A DNA stretch of 64,000 bases from Nitrospira tepida (lineage in GTDB: Bacteria > Nitrospirota > Nitrospiria > Nitrospirales > Nitrospiraceae). The position numbers and the translations under genes were made by a program. Positions 11,240 through 55,392 of the stretch are shown one piece after another. Each line of letters starts with the position of its first letter. Position 1 is the first letter of the stretch. The notes under the pieces were generated by a model. It was not told where the DNA came from, ran no database searches, and was given only the letters and a program-made list of their open reading frames with translations. The stretch is from contig NZ_OX365700.1 of assembly GCF_947241125.1 (NCBI RefSeq), positions 3,566,001-3,630,000 of the forward strand, read 5' to 3'.

Positions 11240-11767
11240 TCAGAGTTCCTGCTTCTTGAACTCGGGCAGCACCTTCCCGGCCGACTCCAACAGATCCCGC
11301 CCGACAAGAATCGGCGCCTTGAAATGCACCGCCAGCGCGATTGAATCGGACGACCGGCTGTCGAACACCTTCTCCTCGCCGTTCACCGCCACCGTGAGCG
11401 CGCCATAATAGGTGCCGCCCTTGAGCGTGATGACGGTGCGCAGCACGCGGCCGCCGAACGCTTGCAGAATATTGTGCATGAGGTCGTGCGACATCGGCCG
11501 GGGCAGTTTCTCGCCCGTGAGCGCGCCGTGAATGGAGCCGGCGACGGTGGCATCCACGAAAATCGGAATGGCGCGGCCTTCAGCCAGCAGCAACACCACC
11601 GGGCCCTGCTCGGAGACCCGCACCCGCACGTCCGCAATTTCCACGAGTCGAGCGGGGTCGGTGGACTCTTCCGCCTGCACGGCCTGCCAGTCCGGCATCC
11701 CCATGAACACCGGCACGGCAACGGCCGACCACAACAGACCTGCGATTGCGACGGTTGGCCAGTTCAT
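11240..11767 (-). CDS. Exported bifunctional nuclease (BFN, DUF151) domain protein
   Basis: A 175-residue protein with an N-terminal signal peptide (about 1-30) followed by a BFN/DUF151 domain: AIPIFVDATVAGSIHGAL, RPMSHDLMHNIL and the closing DSRSSDSIALAVHFKAPI. The family is named after plant nuclease homologues; in bacteria the role is unclear, and an exported version is unusual. ATG 11767 is preceded by GGAGGGG, which itself comes from the end of the upstream hairpin repeat (11776-12010), so the repeat helps supply the ribosome site. The ATG at 11779 lies inside that site and is not favoured. Confidence 0.8.
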   Translation of the reverse strand: MNWPTVAIAGLLWSAVAVPVFMGMPDWQAVQAEESTDPARLVEIADVRVRVSEQGPVVLLLAEGRAIPIFVDATVAGSIHGALTGEKLPRPMSHDLMHNILQAFGGRVLRTVITLKGGTYYGALTVAVNGEEKVFDSRSSDSIALAVHFKAPILVGRDLLESAGKVLPEFKKQEL

Positions 11768-11775
11768 ACACCCCT

Positions 11776-12010
11776 CCATACCAACCTTGGTTGAACCGCC
11801 CGCTCTTTATCGCTGTATCGAATATGCTGCGGGCGGAGAAAACCCCTTAGCGCCTCTCTTGGTTCGGTTATTCCTGCTCTCACCTGGCTTCACTCGGCCC
11901 CCGGAGAAACGCCACCCAGTGATCCTCCTCGCTTTTTCCCCCATACCAACCTTGGTTGAACCGGCAACTCATCGGGCGAAGCCCCTCCATACCGAGCTTC
12001 GCTTGGGCGG
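11776..12010 (-). repeat. Hairpin repeat, copy A, in the leader of the DUF151 gene
   Basis: Read on the minus strand this region contains three units ending in CCAAGGTTGGTATGG or the variant CGAAGCTCGGTATGG (near 11776, 11941 and 11986). The gene-proximal unit has TTCTCC, then stem CCGCCCGC (11836-11829), a 25-base loop and GCGGGCGG (11803-11796), then the GGTATGG tail. The same arrangement occurs at 18378-18588 with different but still complementary stem bases. The last unit merges into the ribosome site of the 11767 gene. See the findings for the comparison. Confidence 0.75.
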
Positions 12011-17951: not shown

Positions 17952-18377
17952 GCGCCAAGCTCCGCCGCTCTGCCCACTGACGGCGATCGACCGATCGAGA
18001 ACGGTCTGTTGACGCCGGAAGAGGTCGCCCTCACAGGCGGATTTCTCAGAATCCACCCTACCCAATGGCCCTATCAATCGACAAACGGCTCTAATTGCTC
18101 ACACGTGTTCTTTATGGTACAGAGGCAGCCTGAAGTGGATAGCAGTCATTCATACATCGATTCATTCATCATCCCTGAATATCCTTCTTTGCAGCGATCG
18201 CTGGAATCTCCCTTCATTTTGGCGTCATGAGCGGACGATCGCACGCCCATCTTCGACTTTGTCCAGGCCGTCATAGGATGAAGCGCGTTCGGTATTAACT
18301 TTGCTTTCCCAGGCGCGAGACTCCCTGCGCACCGATCGGCTCATCCCTATACAGAGGAATGAGAATACGTAGAAGGT
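17952..18377. other. Intergenic region without a supported gene
   Basis: About 430 bases between the PilZ gene and the hairpin repeat of the TolB-like gene. Base composition is more AT-rich than the flanks (around 18100-18230). A 73-codon open frame at 18009-18230 has no ribosome site and no recognisable protein features, so I do not call it. Promoters for the 18594 gene are expected here, but I see no convincing -35/-10 pair. Confidence 0.5.
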
Positions 18378-18588
18378 GTTTCTCCGCCGGCTCAGTTACG
18401 AAAGGACCCGGATTAGCCGGCGGTTCCAGCGAAGCTTGGTATAGAGGGGCTTCACCCGATAAGCCGCCAGTCCAACCAGGTTTGGTATGGGAAAGAGAGA
18501 AAAGAATCACCAAAGGGGTCTCTCCGCGGGCGTCAGATTACTGAGAAACCGTGAATAGCCCGCGGTTCTAGCGAAGCTTGGTATGGTG
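18378..18588 (+). repeat. Hairpin repeat, copy B, in the leader of the TolB-like gene
   Basis: Two full units: TTTCTCC then stem CCGCCGGC (18384-18391), 24-base loop, GCCGGCGG (18416-18423), tail CGAAGCTTGGTAT; and TCTCC then CCGCGGGC (18524-18531), 26-base loop, GCCCGCGG (18558-18565), tail CGAAGCTTGGTATGG. Between them lies a compact unit (ACCAGGTTTGGTATGG, about 18475-18490) as in copy A. The stem letters differ between units and from copy A, yet pairing is kept. The last tail ends 7 bases before the ATG at 18594. Confidence 0.8.
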
Positions 18589-36870: not shown

Positions 36871-37082
36871 AACCCACATTATTCATGACGGTTCGTGACG
36901 AAACCACCAAGACGCCACGCGAGACGGGCACGCGGAGCCGCGAGGGAGGAAGGCATACTTAAACAGTATGTCGACCGACCGAGAGTCGAGCCTGCCCGCT
37001 TGGCTGTGGGAACCTGGCAGCCAAGCTTGGCGCAGCGGCGTATCGGCGGGTGCAGTCTAAGCGGCCTTGATTAATGTGGGTT
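36871..37082. mobile_element. Miniature inverted-repeat element (212 bp)
   Basis: AACCCACATTATT (36871-36883) is repeated inverted as ATTAATGTGGGTT (37070-37082), 12 of 13 positions matching. The inside has no coding capacity; it contains a smaller palindrome TTGGCTG/CAGCCAA (about 37001-37019) and GC-rich stems. It ends 4 bases before the BrnA stop codon. No target-site duplication is obvious. A fold into a MITE or a regulatory hairpin is both possible. Confidence 0.45.
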
Positions 37083-53748: not shown

Positions 53749-53797
53749 AACACAGTTCGATGGCACTCACCCACCTATCGGAATCCGAACAGAGAAA

Positions 53798-55112
53798 GAA
53801 TCGATCGGGGTCAGATCTTGTTTTGTGCGTGCCGATGAGCTAGATTTGGTGGCATGGCCCGCCCGCTTCGCCTTGAATTTCCGGGGGCGCTGTACCACGT
53901 CACCGCTCGGGGGAACGCCCGCCACGCCATCGTTCTCGACGACCAGGACCGGCAGCGGTTTCTCGATGTGCTGGCGCGTGTGGTCCCGCTTTCACCTGCT
54001 GCTTCACGCCTATTGCCTGATGGACAACCACTACCATCTGCTGGTGGAAACGCCGGAGGCGAATCTCTCGAAGGCCATGCGCCAGCTCAACGGCGTGTAT
54101 ACTCAAGCCTTTAACCGCCGCCACCGGCGAGTGGGCCATGTGCTCCAAGGCCGCTTCAGGGCCATTGTGGTGGACCGGGACAGCTATCTGCTGGAGCTGT
54201 GCCGGTACGTGGTCCTCAATCCGGTGCGCGCGAAAAGCACCCGCAAACCAGAGACGTATGCATGGTCCAGCTACCGGGCCACAGCTGGCCTCGCCGCCAC
54301 GCCACCGTTTCTGGCCGTGGATTGGCTGCTCTCCCAATTCGGCCACCAGCGCCTGGCCGCTCAGCGAAAGTATCGCGCCTTCGTCGCCGAGGGCATGGGT
54401 CAGGGCTCCCCGTGGGAGCACGTGCAGGGGCAGGTGCTGCTCGGGAGCGAGAAATTGAATCGATCGGGGTCAGATCTTGTTTTGTGCGTGCCGATGAGCT
54501 AGATTTGGTGGCATGGCCCGCCCGCTTCGCCTTGAATTTCCGGGGGCGCTGTACCACGTCACCGCTCGGGGGAACGCCCGCCACGCCATCGTTCTCGACG
54601 ACCAGGACCGGCAGCGGTTTCTCGATGTGCTGGCGCGTGTGGTCGACCGCTTTCACCTGCTGCTTCACGCCTATTGCCTGATGGACAACCACTACCATCT
54701 GCTGGTGGAAACGCCGGAGGCGAATCTCTCGAAGGCCATGCGCCAGCTCAACGGCGTGTATACCCAAGCCTTTAACCGCCGCCACCGGCGAGTGGGCCAT
54801 GTGCTCCAAGGCCGCTTCAAGGCCATTGTGGTGGACCGGGACAGCTATCTGCTGGAGCTGTGCCGGTACGTGGTCCTCAATCCGGTGCGCGCGAAAAGCA
54901 CCCGCAAACCAGAGACTTATGCATGGTCCAGCTACCGGGCCACAGCTGGCCTCGCCGCCACGCCACCGTTTCTGGCCGTGGATTGGCTGCTCTCCCAATT
55001 CGGCCACCAGCGCCTGGCCGCTCAGCGAAAGTATCGCGCCTTCGTCGCCGAGGGCATGGGTCAGGGCTCCCCGTGGGAGCACGTGCAGGGGCAGGTGCTG
55101 CTCGGGAGCGAG
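53798..55112 (+). repeat. Tandem duplication of the Y1-transposase region
   Basis: Copy 1 (53798-54451) and copy 2 (54457-55112) are nearly identical; I note a 2-base deletion near 53983-53990 and a few single changes. Copy 1 breaks off after a GAGCGAG sequence where copy 2 continues, and 5 bases separate the copies. The near identity shows a recent event. Confidence 0.85.
53854..54451 (+). pseudogene. Truncated, frameshifted copy of the Y1 transposase
   Basis: Reads MARPLRLEFPGALYHVTARG as the intact gene does, then loses 2 bases (GA in GTCGACC, about 53983) so the frame shifts; the remaining sequence LHAYCLMDNHYHLLVE is in another frame. It stops matching at 54451, about 200 codons in, lacking the C-terminal helix-turn-helix. 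It is not functional. Confidence 0.85.
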
Positions 55113-55392
55113 CGGTTCATCGACCAGCTTCGGGTGGGTTTACAGGACAAGCGCGCCCTTCAGGAGATTCCCCGAGAGCAACGATTTGCCGCCCGGCCGA
55201 CGCTCAGCCACCTGTTTTCCGCCCGACTCGGCACCGACCGCACGCGCCGCAACGAGGTCATCCGCCGTGCCCACGTGGACCACGGCTACAGCTTGTCCGA
55301 GATCGGGCAGGCGGTGGGCTTGCACTATTCGACCATCAGCCGGATCGTGAATCGGCAGGACACCGATAATGCACATAACAAGACCTGACCCC
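54466..55392 (+). mobile_element. Y1 (REP-associated type) transposon copy with inverted ends
   Basis: GGGGTCAGATCTTGTT (starts 54466) and its inverse AACAAGACCTGACCCC (ends 55392) differ at one base over 16; matching extends with a few changes to about 25 bases. The same left end occurs at 53807 for the truncated copy. The ends enclose the transposase gene. HUH-type transposons usually lack strict inverted repeats, so these ends may be REP-like hairpins recognised by the enzyme. Confidence 0.6.
54513..55388 (+). CDS. Y1 (HUH) transposase, REP-associated type
   Basis: A 291-residue tyrosine transposase. The HUH motif is NHYHLLVE with MDNHYH, the catalytic tyrosine is likely in QLNGVYTQAFNRRHRR, and YVVLNPVRA is characteristic of the family. 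A C-terminal helix-turn-helix (GYSLSEIGQAVGLHYSTISR) follows. The family acts on REP-like single-strand hairpins. ATG 54513 starts MARPLRLEFPGALYHVT. The stop TGA lies inside the right terminal repeat. Confidence 0.9.
   Translation: MARPLRLEFPGALYHVTARGNARHAIVLDDQDRQRFLDVLARVVDRFHLLLHAYCLMDNHYHLLVETPEANLSKAMRQLNGVYTQAFNRRHRRVGHVLQGRFKAIVVDRDSYLLELCRYVVLNPVRAKSTRKPETYAWSSYRATAGLAATPPFLAVDWLLSQFGHQRLAAQRKYRAFVAEGMGQGSPWEHVQGQVLLGSERFIDQLRVGLQDKRALQEIPREQRFAARPTLSHLFSARLGTDRTRRNEVIRRAHVDHGYSLSEIGQAVGLHYSTISRIVNRQDTDNAHNKT

Follow-up and report, generated by a model that had tools for sequence, protein, structure and literature searches.

A repeat unit of ~95 bp in front of the DUF151 gene in a 64,000-nt stretch of the Nitrospira tepida genome (the window) is very probably a non-coding mobile element specific to the Nitrospiraceae, which inserts one way only at a Shine-Dalgarno sequence or at the complement of a CCA end and builds polar arrays. 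The junctions with the targets, the empty sites and the evidence against a leader function lie behind this assignment, and the repeat is therefore regarded as a target-specific mobile repeat.

The gene-proximal unit of copy A (11776-11870, minus strand) reads TTTTCTCCGCCCGC-(25 nt)-GCGGGCGG-TTCAACCAAGGTTGGTATGG (Table 1). This is the layout described in an earlier note on this DNA, except that the note counted the CC of TTCTCC twice. Copy A has only this one complete unit, alongside a partial unit (25 bits) and a degenerate module (17 bits). The three GGTATGG tails reported earlier are present, with CCATACC starting at 11776, 11941 and 11987, and the last of them is indeed joined to the DUF151 ribosome site, running into GGAGGGG 3 nt 5' of the ATG. 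The intergenic DNA upstream of the DUF151 gene consists of this repeat nearly throughout. The sequence CCATACCAACCTTGG occurs six times in the window with three or fewer mismatches (0.99 expected) and 87 times genome-wide with two or fewer (11 for the reversed control). The tail also contains an ATG in frame with the DUF151 gene, and the ORF finder therefore places the start at 11779, 12 nt too early; the starts of other genes behind units may be affected likewise.

Table 1. Coordinates of the repeat modules and adjoining features in copies A and B (window positions)
Feature	Position	Strand	Description
Complete gene-proximal unit, copy A	11776-11870	-	77.4 bits, model R1
Hairpin B	11796-11836	-	arms 11829-11836 (CCGCCCGC) and 11796-11803 (GCGGGCGG); 25-nt loop 11804-11828
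Tail hairpin A	11782-11793	-	CAACC-AA-GGTTG
TTCTCC	11835-11840	-	CC is bases 1-2 of hairpin B
GGAGGGG, Shine-Dalgarno of the DUF151 gene	11771-11777	-	junction GGTAT/GGAGGGG
DUF151 (bifunctional nuclease domain) protein gene	11240-11767	-	start ATG 11767
Middle module, degenerate, copy A	11878-11939	-	16.9 bits, E 0.009
Partial unit with its own GGTATGG tail, copy A	11941-12009	-	25.2 bits; third tail 11987-11993
Complete unit 1, copy B	18350-18444	+	80.1 bits
Tail-only module between the two complete units, copy B	18445-18490	+	
Complete unit 2, copy B	18490-18586	+	79.7 bits; ends 7 nt before ATG 18594

The unit begins with a purine-rich left arm about 35 nt long. TTTCTCC comes next and overlaps hairpin B, which is followed by hairpin A and then GTATGG. 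Hairpin B has an 8-bp stem and a variable loop with four length classes (~11, ~16, ~25 and ~28 nt), the longest of which contains an inner GGGC-TTC-GCCC hairpin that itself varies by swaps. Hairpin A has a 5-bp stem and a loop of 2-3 nt. Read in the tRNA direction, the left arm contains GGATAAACACCTCCAGTGTTTCT, which is similar to the 3' end of 16S rRNA, GGATCACCTCCTTTCT.

With a covariance model (R1) built from an alignment of 61 units, at least 140 units reached E<=0.01 in this genome of 4.73 Mb, the best 150 candidates being scored. Among 175 genomes of the Nitrospiraceae, 144, from 18 of the 22 genera, gave units. Across 396 genomes of the phylum, all 88 positives at E<=1e-7 are Nitrospiraceae, and no R1 unit was found in the other families sampled. 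Exact-tail matches that bear names come from Nitrospira and from Nitrospiraceae MAGs; the sole match to the exact pattern outside the family, L161 in an Acidobacteriaceae bin, has no unit there. A search of Rfam with the repeat gave only chance-level matches below the gathering score. The repeat is a lineage-wide family of the Nitrospiraceae.

The R1 matches were grouped into 69 arrays, 10 inside a MITE family and 59 outside it. Classification of the 59 by reading the flanking sequence showed that 53 end exactly at a Shine-Dalgarno sequence (38) or at a tRNA or tmRNA terminus (15), with the remaining six placed in neither class. In the 38 arrays at protein genes, TATGG lies directly at the Shine-Dalgarno sequence and the start codon follows mostly 4-12 nt on; as background, ~0.3% of the GG sites in the window DNA precede AGG-N1..9-ATG. 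Fourteen of the 15 tRNA and tmRNA arrays are located at the 3' CCA, five of these at 3' fragments, and one lies before a tRNA-Ser with the 5' end GGAGGGG. The orientation of the unit is fixed, sense with the gene at the Shine-Dalgarno sequence and antisense at the tRNA and tmRNA 3' ends. Many of the top-scoring units in relatives likewise adjoin tRNA and tmRNA 3' ends. The protein genes targeted, identified from their translations, are of various kinds, among them leuA, glutathione peroxidase, flagellar parts and TolC, and have no obvious common function. Since the GGAGGGG of the tRNA-Ser 5' end is untranslated, the junctions suggest recognition of sequence rather than of translation.

Two of these kinds of locus stand out. 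The five tRNA 3' fragments, with adjoining units at genome positions 668296, 1649552, 2262629, 2798531 and 4000388, resemble the attachment remnants that integrated islands leave. The MITE family comprises ~20 copies with terminal inverted repeats CTARCCCGCATTATTCATGA and one short-loop unit in the middle of the element (L031, L035, L038, L041, L044, L047, L048, L052 and others); one matching end lies at window position 36872.

Comparisons of the stems showed that positions change together with their partners, as the earlier note had seen in a few units. In 81 units chosen regardless of pairing, the hairpin B arms are 86% Watson-Crick, compared with 72% (maximum 75.8%) when the arms are dealt anew. 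In the 61-unit alignment, 93 cells changed on both sides vs. 31 after shuffling, and the covariation score is 0.242, compared with 0.072 after shuffling and no more than 0.039 after sliding. Hairpin A has G-C in 39 and C-G in 20 units of the same genome. Among the relatives, hairpin B is 83% Watson-Crick vs. 64% and hairpin A 79% vs. 55%, with stems that include CAACC/GGTTG, CGCAC/GTGCG, CAAGC/GCTTG and others. Nearly all stem changes lead from one Watson-Crick pair to another, and in well-registered units G-T pairs (0.6%) are no commoner than other mismatches (0.8%). Thus, selection appears to act on Watson-Crick pairing, a better fit to a DNA hairpin than to RNA. Of the earlier suggestion that pairing is selected either as RNA or as hairpin DNA, the selection stands and the DNA form is favoured. 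The family, the selected stems and the preference for gene starts therefore set the units apart from ordinary dispersed repeats, the outcome that would have told against the earlier note.

Comparisons of related genomes revealed sites with and without insertions. In genomes without a unit at ssrA, an intrinsic terminator often lies directly after the CCA. The ssrA regions of G020 and G026 can be aligned for ~155 nt past the CCA, apart from ~92 bp inserted right after it, and the native terminator is kept beyond the insert in G026. The insert belongs to a second repeat type, which is related and has a comparable CCCCCAGTG module, most copies reading CCTCCAGTG; this cleanest empty site at ssrA concerns the second type and not the R1 unit. 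The second type (AACAGAGCTCGCTCGACCCGGAGCC...GGTTCCGGGCGACGGGATAAAC) also lies directly after the ssrA CCA at L241, L248, L208, L211 and L236, and has in common with R1 units the CCA junction and a CCTCCAGTG-like module. At the glutaredoxin gene, the leader in G002 and many other genomes is TAGGAGG-N5-ATG, in which the upstream stop overlaps the Shine-Dalgarno sequence; TAGGAGG is the ancestral form, common in other genera. In G001, of the same genus as G002, and in G142, a unit is located between the stop and the Shine-Dalgarno sequence. None of the three comparisons at ssrA and the two at glutaredoxin shows a target duplication.

The arrays have a polar order. The ssrA region of G120 is 168 bp longer than that of G066, and the region of G057 is 77 bp longer than that of G059. 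In both pairs, the extra DNA sits between the CCA and the unit that adjoins the CCA in the shorter genome, and the newer units are therefore proximal to the CCA. Neighbouring units share the same orientation in 79 pairs and are inverted in none, the median period being 94 bp. Their similarity (0.60) is no greater than that of random pairs (0.56), indicating that the arrays arose mostly from separate insertions at one junction; an origin by tandem duplication is ruled out except for the 6 of 70 neighbour pairs that are near-identical.

In the mechanism favoured here, the unit inserts one way only: the end with hairpin A comes to lie against the GG of a Shine-Dalgarno sequence, reading with the gene, or against the complement of the 3' CCA of a tRNA or tmRNA gene, in antisense. 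Further copies enter at that same junction, so that mixed head-to-tail arrays grow from the target end. The hairpins would presumably be recognised, as DNA, by a trans-acting recombinase or transposase. A more far-reaching reading, put forward tentatively and with somewhat less than even confidence, is a new integration system in which an undescribed enzyme adds a hairpin DNA cassette directionally and repeatedly at CCA complements or Shine-Dalgarno sequences (in one case the GGAGGGG 5' end of tRNA-Ser). The insertion sites would then be defined by translation signals, and the polar arrays would record the order of insertion. No published account of such targeting and polar growth was found in the literature searched, and within that literature both are, to our knowledge, undescribed.

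Of the alternatives, the likeliest is an integron-like cassette, in which a single-stranded hairpin is recombined by a tyrosine recombinase into fixed sites. Integron cassette arrays with attC sites are oriented, grow in a polar manner and conserve structure above sequence. The present arrays resemble them in their single orientation, polar growth and mixed units, and in hairpins that are conserved more in structure than in sequence around variable loops. However, the unit ends, read by eye, lack the GTTRRRY/RYYYAAC boxes of attC, the units carry no cassette genes, and the targets are many and dispersed rather than one attI. Tyrosine recombinases were detected with the general Phage_integrase model in all eight genomes tested, but units lie near only 1 of 30 such integrase loci, and an adjoining recombinase was rejected as the partner. 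An integron-like cassette is thus an unlikely description of the element.

The leader reading, in which the hairpins act as a leader RNA or RNA switch that regulates translation of the gene behind, for example by pairing of TTCTCC with the Shine-Dalgarno sequence, is improbable. The 38 arrays that end at a Shine-Dalgarno sequence and start codon and the selection on the stem are in its favour. However, the unit also occurs at dozens of unrelated genes and in antisense at tRNA and tmRNA 3' ends, and G-U pairs are not in excess. The 29 DUF151 orthologues in other genera have native GGAGG-type Shine-Dalgarno sequences and short leaders, and only one of them (in G169) has a unit in its leader, away from the Shine-Dalgarno sequence. 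The pairing that the earlier note proposed between TTCTCC and the ribosome site has a probability of 3e-5 in the predicted ensemble of the folded leader, and the motif in most relatives is TTTATCC (28, vs. 12 with TTTCTCC). Neither the leader role at DUF151 nor this pairing is therefore retained; an effect of the unit on expression of the downstream gene is possible as a side effect of insertion.

It is more doubtful still that the unit began as a trailer or terminator at the 3' end of tRNA and tmRNA genes and spread elsewhere. The ssrA unit does occupy the place of the intrinsic terminator of other genomes, but the native terminator of G026 persists beyond the insert, no T-run follows hairpin B, and at the 38 protein-gene arrays the terminator direction would be antisense. 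A terminator role was rejected on the G026 locus.

The least credible alternative, already largely refuted, is a REP/REPIN element mobilised by a Y1 (RAYT) transposase: the units are small, palindromic, intergenic and numerous, with compensatory stem swaps, and the genome has eight Y1 genes, but where REP/REPIN elements have a GTAG/CGTC tag, HH or TT dimers and a position near ORF 3' ends (PMC3733652), the units have GTATGG/CCATAC flanking hairpin A in a consensus without GTAG or CGTC, head-to-tail neighbours only, and arrays that stop at a start codon or at the 3' end of a tRNA. The Y1 partner was rejected, as units are near 1 of 30 Y1 loci of relatives and at none of the eight in the same genome, and the transposase is absent from the unit-rich genomes G001, G002, G006, G169 and G171. 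Two tandem Y1_Tnp (TnpA_REP-like) genes, 98-99% identical, are present at window positions 53791-55390, the first truncated where the second begins. A reverse transcriptase was also weighed as the partner, since TGG can pair with CCA and a copy might be primed by the tRNA or at the target; it was rejected because 12 of 14 unit-rich genomes lack one.

Comparison with other small repeats places the element among the short interspersed bacterial repeats in the broad sense. Like MITEs (PMC10969869), it is non-autonomous, has spread genome-wide and left insertions visible as empty sites; unlike them, it shows no terminal inverted repeats, the two unit ends being unlike in the 61 aligned units, and no target duplication. 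The defining features of both REP elements and MITEs are thus missing. The element is short, non-coding, intergenic, stem-looped and present in many copies per genome, and is in these respects BOX-like. The pneumococcal BOX, RUP and SPRITE repeats (PMC3049150) are likewise modular and probably parasitic, with a mobilising transposase that is inferred or unknown. The present units differ in having no inverted modules and an exact, oriented Shine-Dalgarno or CCA junction, a targeting not found for BOX, RUP or SPRITE in the passages searched.

The target-specific mobile repeat proposed here is directed almost absolutely to two functional landmarks, which have only a short GG-rich sequence in common, and its arrays grow in a polar manner; the site preference of short bacterial repeats is usually loose. 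The mobilising enzyme, if found, would show a new insertion specificity. The ATG in the repeat tail can mislead start-codon annotation. In these nitrite oxidisers, dozens of housekeeping genes have had their 5' leaders rewritten by the insertions, and many tRNA genes their 3' flanks.
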